In this document: positions 31,288-37,889 of the stretch, in pieces
Layout of the letters: every line of letters starts with the position of its first letter
How positions within the stretch are numbered: position 1 is the stretch's first letter
Assembly (NCBI RefSeq): GCF_021233415.1
Contig: NZ_CP089466.1
Location: forward strand, 2,294,001 to 2,358,000
Direction of reading: 5' to 3'
DNA from: Halobacterium litoreum
GTDB taxonomy: Archaea; Halobacteriota; Halobacteria; Halobacteriales; Halobacteriaceae
Length of the DNA: 64,000 bases
Notes under the pieces: model-generated
What the model was told of the DNA's origin: nothing
The model's database searches: none
The model's input: the letters and a program-made list of their open reading frames with translations, nothing else
Translations under genes and position numbers: made by a program

Positions 31288-32781
31288 CTAAACGTCGTAC
31301 AGGTCGCCGAACTTCTCGCGGGCGTACTCGACGAAGTAGTCCGCGGTCAGCGGTTCGCCGGTCGCCACCTCGATGAGTTCGTCGGTGGTGTAGCGCTGGC
31401 CGTGCTCGTGGACGTGCTCGGTGAGCCACTCGCGAATCGGCCCGAACTCGCCTTCGCGCACGAGGTCGTCCACGTCGAGGTCCTCGCGCATCGCCGCGTC
31501 CAGTTGGGCGGCGAACACGCTCCCGACGGTGTAGTTCTGGAAGGACGCGAACCCGCCCGACCAGTGGATGTCCTGCAGGCAGCCCTCGGCGTCGTCCTCC
31601 GGGCGCACACCGAGGTAGTCGTCCATCAGGTCGTTCCAGCGCTCGGGCACGTCAGCCACGTCGAGGTCGCCGCCGACGAACGCCTTCTCCACGTCCGCCC
31701 GGAGGATGATGTGCATGTGGTAGGTGAGTTCGTCGGCCTCCACGCGAATCTTGTTCTCCGGGTAGATGCGGTTGACCGCCTCGTACACGTCCCGCGGGTC
31801 GGCGTCCGCGTCGAGGTGCTCGTTCACGATTGGCGTCGCGTACTCCCAGAACGCCTCGGTGCGCCCGACGTGGTTCTCCCAGAACCGCGACTGGGACTCG
31901 TGGACGCCCGACGACCGGGACTGGCCGAGCGGCAGGCCGTACTGGTCGTCCCGGAGGCCGTGCTGGTAGGACGCGTGCCCGAACTCGTGAATCGTACTCA
32001 TCACCGCGCCGAGCGGGTCGTCGGCCGCGAACCGCGTGGTGATGCGCGCGTCGAACTGCGGCCCCACCATGAAGGGGTGGGGTGCCGTGTCGAGGCGACC
32101 GCGGTTCCAGTCGTAGCCGAGGTGGTCGACGATTTCGCGGCAGAGTTCCATCTGCGTGTCGTCGTCGTACTCCCCCGAGAACGGCGACGTAAACTCCGTG
32201 TCGCTGTCCTTCAGGTCCGCAATCAGCGGGACGAGTTCCTCGCGGAGCGTGTCGAAAATCTCCTCGACGCGTTCGAGCGGGAGGTAGGGTTCGCCGTCCT
32301 CGAACATCACCTCGTAGGGGTTAGTGTCCGGGTCGATGTGTTCGACGCGCTCGGTGTGGAGTTCGCGCAGGTCGTCGAGCACGGGCGCGAACTGCGAGAA
32401 GTCGGCGTCGGCCTTCGCGTCCTCCCACACCTGCTGGGCGTCGCTCTGGGTCTCCGTGAGTTCCGCGACGAGGTCGCTGGGCACGCTGTCCGCGCGCTCG
32501 TACTGCCGGCGCATCTCCCGCACCGTCACCTGCTCGTCGTCGCCCAGTTCCCGGTCTTCGAGTTCGTCCAGCCACCCCGCCACCTCGTCGTCGGTGAGCA
32601 GGTCGTGGTGGACCGTCGACAGCGCCGAAAGTTGCTTCCCGCGGGCGGGCGCGCCGCCTTCGGGCATCATCACGCGCTGGTCCCACGCCAGCACGCCCCG
32701 AGCGTCCCCGAGGTACGCGAGTCGCTTCGTTCGGTCTTCGAGTTCGTCGTAGGCGTCCGTCTCGGGCGGTTCCGTGGCCAT
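31288..32781 (-). CDS. M32 metallocarboxypeptidase (first copy)
   Basis: A 497-residue zinc carboxypeptidase of the Taq type (M32). It has the HEFGH zinc motif (His265, Glu266, His269) inside AVMSTIHEFGHASYQHGL, then the family motifs VHESQSRFWENHVGR and YHMHIILRADVEKAF and C-terminal AEGCLQDIHWSGGFASFQNYTVGS. It removes C-terminal amino acids broadly. The protein is entirely soluble, with no signal peptide. A close paralogue lies 909 bases further on the same strand, with a GNAT acetyltransferase gene between. Confidence 0.95.
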   Translation of the reverse strand: MATEPPETDAYDELEDRTKRLAYLGDARGVLAWDQRVMMPEGGAPARGKQLSALSTVHHDLLTDDEVAGWLDELEDRELGDDEQVTVREMRRQYERADSVPSDLVAELTETQSDAQQVWEDAKADADFSQFAPVLDDLRELHTERVEHIDPDTNPYEVMFEDGEPYLPLERVEEIFDTLREELVPLIADLKDSDTEFTSPFSGEYDDDTQMELCREIVDHLGYDWNRGRLDTAPHPFMVGPQFDARITTRFAADDPLGAVMSTIHEFGHASYQHGLRDDQYGLPLGQSRSSGVHESQSRFWENHVGRTEAFWEYATPIVNEHLDADADPRDVYEAVNRIYPENKIRVEADELTYHMHIILRADVEKAFVGGDLDVADVPERWNDLMDDYLGVRPEDDAEGCLQDIHWSGGFASFQNYTVGSVFAAQLDAAMREDLDVDDLVREGEFGPIREWLTEHVHEHGQRYTTDELIEVATGEPLTADYFVEYAREKFGDLYDV

Positions 32782-32829: not shown

Positions 32830-33381
32830 CTAGACGCCGTCCCACTCCTCGCGAAGCAGGCCGTACAGCACCATGTCGTAGTAGTCGCCGCGGTAGTACG
32901 CGGCCTGCCGGCGGCGACCCTCGCGCTGGAACCCCAGCGATTCGAGCAGCCCCATCGAGGCGTCGTTGAACGCGCCGGCGCGAGCGAACACCCGGCGCAT
33001 GTTCCAGTCCTCGAAGGCGTACTGCACGAGCAGTTCCGCGGCCTCGCTCCCGTACCCGTTCCCGTGGTGGTCGGAACCGAGGTGGTACGCGAGTTCGACG
33101 CTCCGGGCGCGGTCGGTCGCCGTCGGTCCGTACTCGCTCGTCGTCAGGCTCGCGTGCCCGACCGGCTCGTCGTCCGCACAGACAGTCACGTGTACGTCGT
33201 CCTCCGTCGTGAGAACGCGCTCGAAGTACTCCTCGCCGAGGTCGGCGTTCATCGGCTTCGCGTCCAGTGCGGGACGCCACACGCCGGGGTCGTTCATCCA
33301 CTCCCGAATCGCGGGGAGGTCCTCGCGCTCGGTCGGTCGGAGGGTCACCGATTCGCCGGACAGGAAGACGGGACCGGGCAT
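32830..33381 (-). CDS. GNAT family acetyltransferase (RimJ-like)
   Basis: A 183-residue GNAT protein, MPGPVFLSGESVTLRPTEREDLPAIREWMNDPGVW, with YHLGSDHHGNGYGSEAAELLVQYAFEDWNMRRVFARAGAFNDASMGLLESLGFQREG. The latter contains the acetyl-CoA-binding (R/Q)xxGx(G/A)-type segment and the Asn-x-x-S helix typical of RimJ/RimL. Such proteins acetylate protein N termini or amino groups on small molecules. The start at 33381 gives the standard N terminus. It lies between the two M32 carboxypeptidase genes, with the same orientation. Confidence 0.87.
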   Translation of the reverse strand: MPGPVFLSGESVTLRPTEREDLPAIREWMNDPGVWRPALDAKPMNADLGEEYFERVLTTEDDVHVTVCADDEPVGHASLTTSEYGPTATDRARSVELAYHLGSDHHGNGYGSEAAELLVQYAFEDWNMRRVFARAGAFNDASMGLLESLGFQREGRRRQAAYYRGDYYDMVLYGLLREEWDGV

Positions 33382-33470
33382 ACGCGAATTTGGTCTCGGG
33401 TCCGAGCATAAGTCTTCGGTGCGCGTGTGACTCCGTTTCGGAGTATTTCTGTCTGAACCGCGATTTCCGC

Positions 33471-33650
33471 CAGGTAGGGCCCGCGACACCGAGCGAAGCG
33501 ACGGCAGTCGGTCAGCCGGCAGCCTGGTGGATCGAAAGGGCGAGGCGCGCTCGCGCTTGCCTTGTTCGCTCGCGACGCGAGGACCGCAGGCCGACGGCCG
33601 AGGACCGCGGCGAGCGAGCGGACGCGAGCGCGCCGAGGGCTTTCTGGTGT
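33471..33650. repeat. Intergenic structured element with a 12-bp stem
   Basis: The 309-base gap 33382-33690 has no convincing gene. Its core is a 12-bp perfect stem, GGCGCGCTCGCG (33544-33555) with CGCGAGCGCGCC (33623-33634). Outside it GAAAG (33534-33538) pairs with CTTTC (33640-33644) across a symmetric 5-by-5 internal loop (GGCGA / GAGGG). Further inside, a CGCTCGC / GCGAGCG stem is possible, and CCAGG / CCTGG (33471-33475 with 33523-33527) can form upstream. The phrase AGCCTGGTGGATCGAAAGGGCGAG strikes me as familiar from haloarchaeal intergenic regions (recall only). It may be a structured RNA or repeat element. Confidence 0.5.
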
Positions 33651-33690: not shown

Positions 33691-35199
33691 CTACAGGTCG
33701 TAGAGTTCCGTGTACTTCTCGGTGGCGTAGTCGAGGAAGTAGTCGGCGGTGAACGCCTTGCCCGTGGCTTCCTCGATGAGTTCGGGGGTGGTGTAGCGCG
33801 CGCCGTGGCTGTGGACGTTCGATTCCAGCCAGTCTGCGATGACGTCGAAGTCGCCGTCGCGGACCTTCTCGTCCACGTCGCCCACGTCCTCGACGAGTGC
33901 GTCGTAAATCTGGGCGGCGAGCACGCTACCGAGCGAGTACGTCGGGAAGTAGCCGAAGGAGCCGTGGCTCCAGTGGATGTCCTGCAGGCAGCCCTCCGCG
34001 TCGTTCTCGGGGCGGATGCCGAGGTACTCCTCGTACTTGTCGTTCCAGACCTCGGGCACGTCCTCCACGTCGAGGTCGCCCTCGATGAGTTCGCGCTCGA
34101 TTTCGAAGCGCACCACGATGTGCATGTGGTAGGTGAGTTCGTCCGCTTCGACGCGGATGAGGTTGTTCTCGTGGACCTCGTTGGCGGCCTCGTAGGCCTC
34201 TTCGGGGGTGCCCTCGACCTGCGGGAAGCGCTCTTTGACGGCGGGCAGGAACTTCTCCCAGAAGACGCGACTGCGGCCGACGTGGTTCTCCCAGAGGCGG
34301 CTCTGGGACTCGTGGACGGTGAGGTCCCGGGACTCGCCGAGCGGGCTGCCGAACTGGTCGCGGGGCAGGCCGAGCGTGTAGCGCGCGTGGCCGAACTCGT
34401 GAATCGTGGACATGAAGGCGTCCACGGGCTTCTCCGGGTCGAAGCGCGTGGTGACGCGGGCGTCGAACTGGTTCCCCGACGAGAACGGGTGCGGGGCGGT
34501 GTCGAGGCGGCCGTGCTCCCAGTCGTAGCCGAGCGTGTCGAGCACGTCCCGCGCGAGGTCCTCCTGGGTGTCGACGTCGAATTCGCCCGTGAACGGGTCC
34601 GCGAGTTCGGCGTCGCTCTCGCGGATGTCGTCGATGAGCGGGACGAGTTCGTCGCGCAGGCGTTCGAGCACCTGCTCCGCGGTTTCGAGGTCGAGGTACG
34701 GCTCGTAGTCCGCGAACAGGACCTCGTAGGGGTCGGCGTCCGGGTCGATGTGGTTCGCGTACTCCTTTTTCAGTTCGATGAGGTCTTCGAGGACCGGAGC
34801 GAAGATGGAGAAGTCGTCTTCCTCGCGGGCTTCCTTCCACTTCGGGTGGGCTTCGGAGGTCTTCTCCGAGATTTCGGCGACGAGGTCGCTGGGGACGCGG
34901 TCGGCGCGCTCGTACTGGCGTCGAATCTCGCGGACGACGGCTTCCTGCTCGCCGGTGAGGTCGGCGTCCGCGAGTTCGTCCAGCCACTCCCCGACCTGCT
35001 CCTCGGTGAGCAGGTCGTGGGAGACGGAGGAGAGCGCGGACTTCTGCTTGGAACGCGCGGGCGTGCCGCCCTCGGGCATCATCACTTCCTGGTCCCAGGA
35101 GAGGATGCCGCTCGCGCCGTTGATGTTCGAAATCGTCTCGTAGTGGTCGAGGAGGGCGTCGTACGCCTCGGGGGCCTCCTGTGTGGCCTCTGTCGCCAT
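33691..35199 (-). CDS. M32 metallocarboxypeptidase (second copy)
   Basis: A 502-residue paralogue of the M32 enzyme encoded at 31288-32781, recognisable by IHEFGHARYTLGLPRDQF (His267, Glu268, His271), VHESQSRLWENHVGRSRVFWEKFLP, YHMHIVVRFEIERELIEG and AEGCLQDIHWSHGSFGYFPTYSLGS. The two paralogues are strongly similar throughout and probably arose by duplication. Differences in the loop after the zinc helix (GLRDDQYGLPL versus GLPRDQFGSPL) may change substrate preference. Cytosolic, no signal peptide. Confidence 0.95.
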   Translation of the reverse strand: MATEATQEAPEAYDALLDHYETISNINGASGILSWDQEVMMPEGGTPARSKQKSALSSVSHDLLTEEQVGEWLDELADADLTGEQEAVVREIRRQYERADRVPSDLVAEISEKTSEAHPKWKEAREEDDFSIFAPVLEDLIELKKEYANHIDPDADPYEVLFADYEPYLDLETAEQVLERLRDELVPLIDDIRESDAELADPFTGEFDVDTQEDLARDVLDTLGYDWEHGRLDTAPHPFSSGNQFDARVTTRFDPEKPVDAFMSTIHEFGHARYTLGLPRDQFGSPLGESRDLTVHESQSRLWENHVGRSRVFWEKFLPAVKERFPQVEGTPEEAYEAANEVHENNLIRVEADELTYHMHIVVRFEIERELIEGDLDVEDVPEVWNDKYEEYLGIRPENDAEGCLQDIHWSHGSFGYFPTYSLGSVLAAQIYDALVEDVGDVDEKVRDGDFDVIADWLESNVHSHGARYTTPELIEEATGKAFTADYFLDYATEKYTELYDL

Positions 35200-36456: not shown

Positions 36457-37188
36457 GTGAGACAGACACCGCAAGCGACCGACCGCACCCCCGAATCGCC
36501 CACCGCGGAACCGGCCCGCGGCGACCGCCGACCGCTCCACGAGCGCGACCCGAGCCTCGTCGATACGGGCGACGCCGACGGACAGGTCGCCGAGACGGGG
36601 ACGACCGTCGTCGGCGTCACCACCGAGGACGCCGCCGTGCTCGCCGCGGACAAGCGCGCGAGCGTCAGCGGCGGTCGGTTCGTCACGAACAAGGACACCC
36701 AGAAGGTCGAAGCCGTCCACCCGACCGCGGCCGCCGCGCTCTCGGGCACCGTCGGCCACATCCAGCAGTTCGTGCGCGTCCTGCGCTCCGAGGCGCGCCT
36801 CTACGAGGACCGGCGCGGCGACCCGCCGAGCCTCGACGCGCTCTCGACGCTCGCGGGCGGCATCCTCGGGTCGTCGCCGCTCGCGGTCTCCCCCCTGCTC
36901 GGCGGTGTGGACGAGGACGGCCCGCAGGTCGTCACGCTCGACGGCGGCGGCGGCGTCCTCACCGACGACTACGCCGCCGGCGGGAGCGGGATGCAACTCG
37001 CGTACGGCGTCCTCGAACGCGAGTACGAACCCGGCCTCGCCGTGGACGCGGCCCGCAGCGTCGCGGCGCGCGCCGTCGGGAGCGCGAGCGAGCGCGACAC
37101 CGCCAGCGGCGACGGCGTCACCGTCGCCACCGTCACCAGCGAGGGCGTCGAACTCGACGACTACGACGCGGCCTCGGAGGTGGCCTGA
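36457..37188 (+). CDS. psmB: 20S proteasome beta subunit (variant)
   Basis: A 243-residue precursor starting at GTG. A 48-residue propeptide (MRQTPQATDRTPESPTAEPARG...) ends at G48, and cleavage would expose Thr49 of TTVVGVTTEDAAVLAADKRAS. Thr1, Asp17 (Asp65), the Lys33 equivalent (in DTQKV, residue 83 with a short insertion), and the GSG and ERD-x2-SG active-site elements are conserved, so it should be catalytic. The sequence is strongly diverged from the usual haloarchaeal beta subunit as I know it. It overlaps the alpha-type gene by a TGATG junction, so the pair is coupled. Presumably a second proteasome core in this organism. Confidence 0.85.
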   Translation: MRQTPQATDRTPESPTAEPARGDRRPLHERDPSLVDTGDADGQVAETGTTVVGVTTEDAAVLAADKRASVSGGRFVTNKDTQKVEAVHPTAAAALSGTVGHIQQFVRVLRSEARLYEDRRGDPPSLDALSTLAGGILGSSPLAVSPLLGGVDEDGPQVVTLDGGGGVLTDDYAAGGSGMQLAYGVLEREYEPGLAVDAARSVAARAVGSASERDTASGDGVTVATVTSEGVELDDYDAASEVA

Positions 37189-37889
37189 TGCAGGGCACCG
37201 ACCAGCGGGCGTACGACCGCGGGACGACCATCTTCTCGCCGGACGGCCGGCTCTACCAGGTCGAGTACGCCCGCGAAGCGGTCAAACAGGGCGCGCCCGT
37301 GGTCGGCGTCAGAGGCGAGGACAGCGTCGTGCTCGCGGCTCACGCGGCCGAGCGCTCCGCACTCGCCGTCGATGGGGACGCCGAGAAGGTCGCCACGGTG
37401 GACGGCCACGTCGCGGTGGCGGGCGCGGGCCACGCCGCCGACACCCGCCAACTGGTGGATTTGGCTCGCCAGCGTGCCCAGCAGGAGCGCGTCCGGTACG
37501 GCGAGCGCGCGCCCGTCGCCGAACTCGGAACGGTCGTCGCCGACCACCTCCAGGAGTACACGCAGACCGGCGGCGCGCGCCCGTACGGCACGGCCTTGCT
37601 CGTCGCGGGTCACGACGGCGCGCCCGGCCTCGTGGAAATCGACCCGTCGGGCGCGACCCGCGAGTGGCGCGCCGACGCCGTCGGTCGGAACGCGAGCGTC
37701 GCCCGCGAGCAATTCGAGGACGACTACGAAGAAGAACTGAGCGCCGACGGCGCGCTGGCGCTCGCGCTCGCCGGCCTCGACGCGGCGGTAGACGACCTCT
37801 CGGTCGCCGACGTGGACGCGACGCTCGTGACCGACGACGGCCACGAGCGCGTCGAGGAACAGCGACTGCGGGCGGTGCGCGGGAGTTAA
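37188..37889 (+). CDS. psmA: 20S proteasome alpha subunit (variant)
   Basis: A 233-residue alpha-type subunit, MQGTDQRAYDRGTTIFSPDGRLYQVEYAREAVKQG, containing the diagnostic YDRxxTxFSPDGRLxQVEYAxEAV of all alpha subunits. The EKVATVDGHVAVAGAGHAADTRQLVDLARQ and TQTGGARPYGTALLV motifs match. In most archaea alpha and beta genes are apart; here beta precedes alpha with a one-base overlap. It forms the gating ring that binds regulatory ATPases. Many positions deviate from the canonical haloarchaeal alpha, for example AVKQGAPVVGVRG. It overlaps the convergent regulator gene by four bases. Confidence 0.85.
   Translation: MQGTDQRAYDRGTTIFSPDGRLYQVEYAREAVKQGAPVVGVRGEDSVVLAAHAAERSALAVDGDAEKVATVDGHVAVAGAGHAADTRQLVDLARQRAQQERVRYGERAPVAELGTVVADHLQEYTQTGGARPYGTALLVAGHDGAPGLVEIDPSGATREWRADAVGRNASVAREQFEDDYEEELSADGALALALAGLDAAVDDLSVADVDATLVTDDGHERVEEQRLRAVRGS

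Follow-up and report, generated by a model that had tools for sequence, protein, structure and literature searches.

The window analysed here is a 64-kb stretch of the Halobacterium litoreum genome, and the element under study lies in it at 33524..33648 on the plus strand, within a 309-nt gap between two minus-strand genes. On one side is a GNAT acetyltransferase gene (32830..33381; PF13302), whose start codon is 142 nt upstream of the element, and on the other an M32 carboxypeptidase gene (33691..35199; PF02074, 561 bits), whose stop is 42 nt past the element's 3′ end. Read on the plus strand, the one with the purine-rich loop, the element is antisense to both neighbours. The region has two paralogous M32 carboxypeptidase genes (31288-32781 and 33691-35199, both minus), one on either side of the GNAT gene, and farther on a pair of adjacent proteasome subunit genes (36457-37188 and 37188-37889), the second with an alpha-type N-terminal signature.

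The outer stem of the hairpin, P1, pairs GAAAG (33534..33538) with CTTTC (33640..33644). It is followed by an internal loop in which GGCGA (33539..33543) faces GAGGG (33635..33639), and then by a 12-bp stem, P2, with 5′ arm GGCGCGCTCGCG (33544..33555) and 3′ arm CGCGAGCGCGCC (33623..33634), whose sequence varies among copies. All of these were read from the plus-strand sequence; P2 was also recovered by an inverted-repeat search, both stems by an 86-copy alignment, and the loop by a survey of loops among copies. An earlier note made from the sequence alone had described the perfect 12-bp stem, the outer GAAAG/CTTTC stem and the 5-by-5 loop; the P2 arms are exact reverse complements, and the note was correct to the base on all three. 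Taken together, the arms register in the inverted-repeat search as a 22-nt inverted repeat, 82% complementary, with 67 nt between them.

Inside P2, at 33574..33614 (plus strand), is an inner module, a divergent form of the GACGCAAGCAC ... GCGCAGCGAG module common to the two subtypes (type I and type II) of copies found elsewhere; it contains a 10-nt direct repeat, CGAGGACCGC, at 33578 and 33599. Upstream of the element, GGTCAGCCGG (33510..33519, plus strand) equals, by eye from the flanks, half of the palindromic centre seen between head-to-head type II copies. A lone CCTGGCGG lies on the opposite strand (33467..33474), 48 nt upstream of the window copy's CCTGG, and may be the remnant of a lost head-to-head partner arm; a covariance-model scan of the window gave no match at that place.

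Folded alone, 180 nt around the element stay within chance (z = -1.16 on the plus strand and -1.46 on the minus strand, relative to dinucleotide shuffles), as expected for DNA of more than 70% GC. A covariance model, R1, built from 28 other copies with the window copy not among them, matches the element over its full length (model positions 1-121) as a type I copy with 85.5 bits (E 5.3e-17), and a whole-genome scan returned the same place; no other place in the 64-kb window scores above 20.5 bits. It is comparison with other copies, not single-sequence folding, that lifts the hairpin above chance.

Distribution of the family

The model alignment (A2) took 28 of the 32 type-A copies then collected, near-identical copies from genome G011 having been dropped; type II copies are absent from the R1 training set. 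In the 2.7-Mb genome of the window (G000), R1 yields 43 matches at E <= 0.5, 30 of which score at least 60 bits, and a blastn-type search with the element yields 48 matches, several of them strong. The phrase GGTGGATCGAAAGGGCGAGG, which the earlier note took for recurrent haloarchaeal intergenic sequence, occurs eight times in this genome with up to three mismatches (zero for a reversed-pattern control) and turns up again in the species-wide scan described below, so the note was right on this point.

All 30 of the matches at or above 60 bits fall in 20-736 kb and 1,997-2,636 kb of the 2,697-kb contig, and the intervening 1.26 Mb (47% of the contig) holds none of them. With the main orc1/cdc6 gene located at 2,542,663, the copies crowd the origin half of the genome; the probability of this clustering is about 3e-7 for 24 independent sites, a figure computed for a region picked after seeing the data.

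Beyond this genome, a two-ended exact pattern is present in 14 of the 20 genomes of a set of relatives, and R1 matches occur in 10 of 12 relatives' genomes, at 0 to 76 per genome. The covariance-model search of haloarchaeal genomes that the earlier note had proposed found many copies: class-wide, 98 of 116 Halobacteria genomes and 39 of 45 genera carry them. A search of the phylum found 37 of 246 genomes positive, all of them among the 43 that the list places in the window's own order or nearer, and gave no R1 match in the other 203 genomes, 189 of the negative genomes being taken as non-Halobacteria from list order. Copy numbers are lower bounds, with up to 31 candidates scored per genome in the class search and up to 14 in the phylum search. 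In a scan of 84,980 bacterial and archaeal species, all 80 titled loci among the matches listed bear a haloarchaeal name.

Haloarchaeal genomes are well studied, yet searches of Rfam 15 match none of the copies searched. At gathering level they return only a tRNA elsewhere in the window, and the sub-threshold rows are chance microRNA models, so that no known RNA family emerges from Rfam. Plasmid and phage records, searched with distant blastn, left the window copy unmatched, a sequence-only search being weak for a stem that changes this fast.

Covariation, gene context and loop forms

The family's unit is a long hairpin of ~105-130 nt, consisting of a short outer stem (outer motifs GAAAGGG / GGGCTTTC), the purine-rich internal loop, a variable paired stem and the conserved inner module. 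Its structure was evaluated on alignment A3, which holds 86 model matches from 74 loci, with eight loci excluded as pair partners or copies already collected. In these 86 copies pairing holds in 97.4% of pair cells, changes on both sides appear at 24 of the 30 pairs and in 592 cells (169 ± 10.5 in shuffles), and the covariation score is 0.619 (0.147 in shuffles), figures that lean toward structure through the fitting of the alignment to the model and are inflated in their counts by related copies. Neither the count of both-side changes nor the score was reached in any of 500 shuffles, and sliding the partner by 1-3 columns destroys the signal, leaving a score of 0.075 or less.

The two stems contribute differently. 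P1 cells are 99.5% paired, with both-side changes at two of five pairs, and in P2 such changes are seen at 10 of 11 pairs. The P2 pair at columns 32/174 is GC in 36 copies, CG in 30, AU in eight and UA in five, a mix that, to judge from the alignment, no single ancestor would explain. The compensatory changes that the earlier note proposed to look for are thus plentiful (592 both-side cells), and of the two natures that it offered for the element, a 'structured RNA' agrees with these pairing and covariation values if taken to mean a conserved single-strand structure.

Copies avoid genes. None of 24 copies in the genome of the window (24 of the 30 matches, pair partners excluded) overlaps a predicted gene, and in a named set of 69 pattern matches with 900 nt on each side, within 80 loci and treated with a simple codon-score gene caller, one copy of the 69 overlaps a gene, as against 64% of random places. 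The strand classes of the flanking genes in the named set number 19, 17, 14 and 9, with no clear preference.

An independent small RNA gene, or an RNA acting in cis on the neighbours (a riboswitch, leader or 3′-end element), would fit the strong covariation and the conserved unpaired purines. It would also fit a regularity in the genome of the window, where 14 of the 17 copies with a plus-strand gene downstream end 54-104 nt before the start of that gene. We nevertheless consider this explanation unlikely, since the family has no consistent neighbour or orientation, the window copy is antisense to both of its neighbours, the flanking strands are mixed and the copies are dispersed at about 30 per genome. 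Signals of transcription also argue against it: a TATA-like box in the last 60 nt upstream is found in 0 of 86 copies, and TTTT within 40 nt downstream in only seven of 86. A promoter of its own is made unlikely by the 86 of 86 upstream stretches that have no TATA-like box, and a riboswitch or leader is rejected on the inconsistency of downstream gene and orientation.

The loop takes two dominant forms: type I, GGCGA/GAGGG, which is that of the window copy, and type II, GGG/GGG followed by C-G. The two commonest combinations of P1 and loop are present exactly in 26 and 32 of the 86 copies, and one or other loop form is retained in most of the remainder. These claims rest on A3, as the source pattern of A2 required AAGGGCGAG...CGAGGGCTT and loop invariance in A2 exists by construction. 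A k-turn reading of the GA-containing loop was set aside: with three additional nucleotides on its second strand, the loop is not a canonical k-turn.

Compensatory change in palindromes can arise by template switching, with no selection involved, and the hairpin might accordingly be a neutral palindrome whose shape is kept only by DNA events such as template switching or cruciform recombination. Two observations speak for this: three of the 86 loops have been turned into a perfect helix by copying of one arm, as template switching predicts, and, by eye, the inner hairpin of the CTATC-interior subtype is inverted between species at a shared site (L056 versus L047 and L045). Such a process should erase the mismatched loop everywhere, yet about 80 of the 86 copies keep a GGCGA/GAGGG-like or GGG/GGG-like loop, and both subtypes share a conserved inner module; purely neutral upkeep of the shape seems improbable. 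Perfecting of the palindrome evidently happens and the mismatched loop still survives nearly everywhere, from which we infer that selection acts on the folded plus strand.

Carriers, arrangement and possible exchange between sites

In relatives, many copies sit between recognizable transposon ends. Copies in genomes G011, G009, G098 and G122 are flanked by GGYRGTGTTCAGATAAG and its inverted copy, 17-bp terminal repeats of IS6 type, which were found at 77 places in G011, 81 in G122, 25 in G098 and 11 in G009, and such ends are also present in G014. Perfect 8-bp target duplications border 21 of 44 units and 7 of 8 positions match in three more, with none among 132 shifted controls; 23 of the 44 units are without a perfect duplication. 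The carrier units measure 74-537 bp and contain no transposase, being too short to encode one. The smallest (74-81 bp) are ends plus little else, one-arm forms have ~184-231 bp and two-arm forms ~320-373 bp, and some units are swollen by nested hairpins. In G122 the two-arm units have, by eye, unlike arms, one with the GCAAGCAC module and the other with a CACTATC...GATATC-type interior. Two carriers, L423 and L426, reach 534 and 537 bp through numerous short, perfect hairpins nested at internal positions, and look as if the hairpins themselves were inserted as units.

G011 also carries a 697-bp IS (L401) with the same ends as the carrier MITEs, encoding a 213-aa IS6-family transposase (NF033587, 199.7 bits with a cut-off of 125; PF13610). 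The carrier ends and duplications agree with IS6 features given in the available text of PMC7986276, namely 8-bp duplications, GG tips and a TGTT motif.

The second nature offered by the earlier note, a 'mobile repeat', accordingly stands in relatives, where IS6-type ends, 8-bp duplications and a matching IS occur together, and finds no such ends at the window copy or elsewhere in its own genome. The IS6-type terminal repeat has no copy in that genome (up to two mismatches) or in G001, despite 30 and more elements. Among the flanks of the 30 copies in the genome of the window there is a weak excess of IS6-type ends, only five exceeding the 95th percentile of shuffles where 1.5 are expected, and the window copy's flank score for such remnants is the lowest of the 30. 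On both grounds the window copy was not filed as an IS6 MITE. With neither it nor its genome showing IS6-type termini it looks locally like a resident relic, with an IS6 MITE as its putative ancestor.

Units are often paired. Among matches of at least 60 bits the genome of the window has six head-to-head pairs (minus then plus) 21-59 bp apart, and in G001 seven are visible, 21-82 bp apart; no close tail-to-tail pair was seen in the match lists of these two genomes. Between type II pairs the centre is, by eye, approximately CCGGYTGRYCARCCGG, situated between CCCACCCG and CGGGTGGG. Another conserved hairpin-rich module of ~150-180 nt, starting ACCGCAGCCCTGCCC, occurs in either orientation between head-to-head arms in HArc-gm2 (a Halobacteria archaeon). 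Loci with this module are L154, L161, L171, L177, L184, L137 and L143, the last being a relative in a Natronomonas contig, and Rfam matched none of the five loci searched.

An insert of ~53 bp with a double hairpin lies between CCTGGYGG and ATTGAAAG in L069, L073 and L075 and is absent from their close relatives L071, L072 and L074. G001, G002 and G011 have double-hairpin inserts alongside the element, and the ends of the bare copies are undefined.

A single-strand DNA element of IS605 kinship, comparable to the Haloquadratum PATEs, with hairpins recognised as DNA by a TnpA-type enzyme, would account for the hairpin ends and the high copy number. This reading is disfavoured by the inverted orientation of the paired units here, since ends of IS605 type are read on a single strand. 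The genome of the window, moreover, has a single TnpB match (PF07282, at 1,823,198) as against 30 copies, and it adjoins none of them; a TnpB omega-RNA was rejected on the same observation. The ~53-bp insert does come close to the 52-bp terminal-only PATEs, and the 8-bp target duplications count against the reading, as PATEs make none according to the available text of PMC3119063. All told we regard an IS605-type origin as distinctly improbable. A chance GC-rich inverted repeat belonging to no family would suit the unremarkable single-sequence fold and is refuted by the copies and their covariation.

Comparison of sites shared between genomes used 71 copies with 460 nt on each side. At the M32-GNAT site the element is present in the same orientation in the genome of the window, G001 and G010; the gap in G004 is 64 nt and empty of the element, and G005 and G006 have other sequence there. 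Between G001 and G010 the 60-nt upstream flank at this site is 90% identical, the core 75% and the P2 arm 64%, and the G010 copy has the P2 that occurs at 283,412 in the genome of the window. The flank has been kept and the hairpin core differs, which suggests core exchange at this site. At a second site (G004 L059 versus G011 L079) 53 of 60 flank letters agree by hand count and the core is 72% identical. In 14 of 19 cross-genome pairs with both outer flanks matching, a closer core exists elsewhere, and in five the most similar core is at the same site. For most shared-site pairs the 60 nt next to the element are near shuffled background (mean 0.58, maximum 0.67), so that independent insertion is possible at those sites and only the two cases named argue well for replacement of the core within an insertion that was itself kept.

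Interpretation and comparison with known systems

The family is real, widespread, structured and, in relatives, mobile, and we class it as a MITE-carried repeat with a conserved, covarying hairpin for cargo. Our preferred reading, which we hold to be rather probable, makes the window copy a resident member of an old non-coding interspersed repeat family that spans the class Halobacteria. Two units often stand head to head around a short palindromic centre. In relatives, MITEs made of one or two units and bounded by 17-bp IS6-type terminal repeats have inserted with 8-bp target duplications; an IS6 transposase would move these MITEs in trans. Most copies in the present genus, the window copy included, would descend from IS6-MITE insertions with decayed ends, or from a different carrier. 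Selection on the folded sense strand would then maintain the shape of resident copies, given that the adjacent stem varies freely and the mismatched loop only rarely; the simplest form for the selected strand would be RNA in read-through transcripts. Resident copies would also trade cores between sites, with gene conversion as the simplest route.

A more specific possibility, which we advance tentatively, is that this is a class-wide structured RNA family, in which a haloarchaeal protein would bind the purine-loop hairpin as RNA. MITEs would spread and re-spread the hairpin, which would then persist at fixed intergenic positions as an exchangeable cassette, with its core swapped between sites and its fold and loop constant.

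Selection on the fold would mean that each genome has tens of loci with a structured RNA or DNA and some partner for it. If the family is only a mobile repeat, it is transposon cargo in which a mismatched hairpin outlasts the turnover of its base pairs. In both cases it offers a clean marker of non-allelic exchange in polyploid archaea, and model R1 makes its annotation possible.

REP/BIME, BOX and RUP are bacterial structured repeats that, like the haloarchaeal family, are intergenic, multi-copy and hairpin-forming. The haloarchaeal unit differs in being much longer, in its fixed internal loop and inner module, and in its restriction to Halobacteria in the searches done.

The literature searched, which covers few subscription journals, contains no description of the family and loosely similar repeats only, and literature searches by sequence strings of the element listed matches that were all unrelated. 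A review of prokaryotic MITEs (PMC10969869) lists Halobacterium and Haloquadratum only briefly in its available text, and that of PMC12306157 has no word beginning with 'Halo'. Parts of the family, the carrier MITE above all, may well already be in ISfinder or in print.

According to the available text of PMC7986276, ISfinder lists two IS6-family MITEs, of 227 and 336 bp. Compared by length and description only, these are near the one-arm (~184-231 bp) and two-arm (~320-373 bp) carriers, and the likeness extends to the 8-bp target duplications, the short GG-tipped terminal repeats with a TGTT motif and the absence of a transposase. The family differs in that the window copy and its genome are without IS6-type ends, and in that the cargo is a covarying structured hairpin far more widespread where those ends are lacking.

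Closer to the present organisms, PMC3119063 describes MITEs, PATEs and SMRs of Haloquadratum. In its available text PATEs have near-terminal palindromes, no terminal inverted repeat and no target duplication, whereas the carrier MITEs have both of the latter; their terminal-only forms, IS605-type remnants of 52 bp, resemble the ~53-bp double-hairpin insert in size. The same text says that SMRs make no target duplication and insert into PATE palindromes, and tabulates 'switch repeats' at identical positions. SMR-A of Haloquadratum walsbyi, at ~110 bp with inverted ends, high copy number, enigmatic mobilisation and frequent hairpin nesting, is the nearest description to our family, alike in size, inverted ends, copy number and nesting. 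The two are set apart by description only: an internal RNA-like structure, which is not among the SMR features in the available text of PMC3119063, is present in the haloarchaeal hairpin family.
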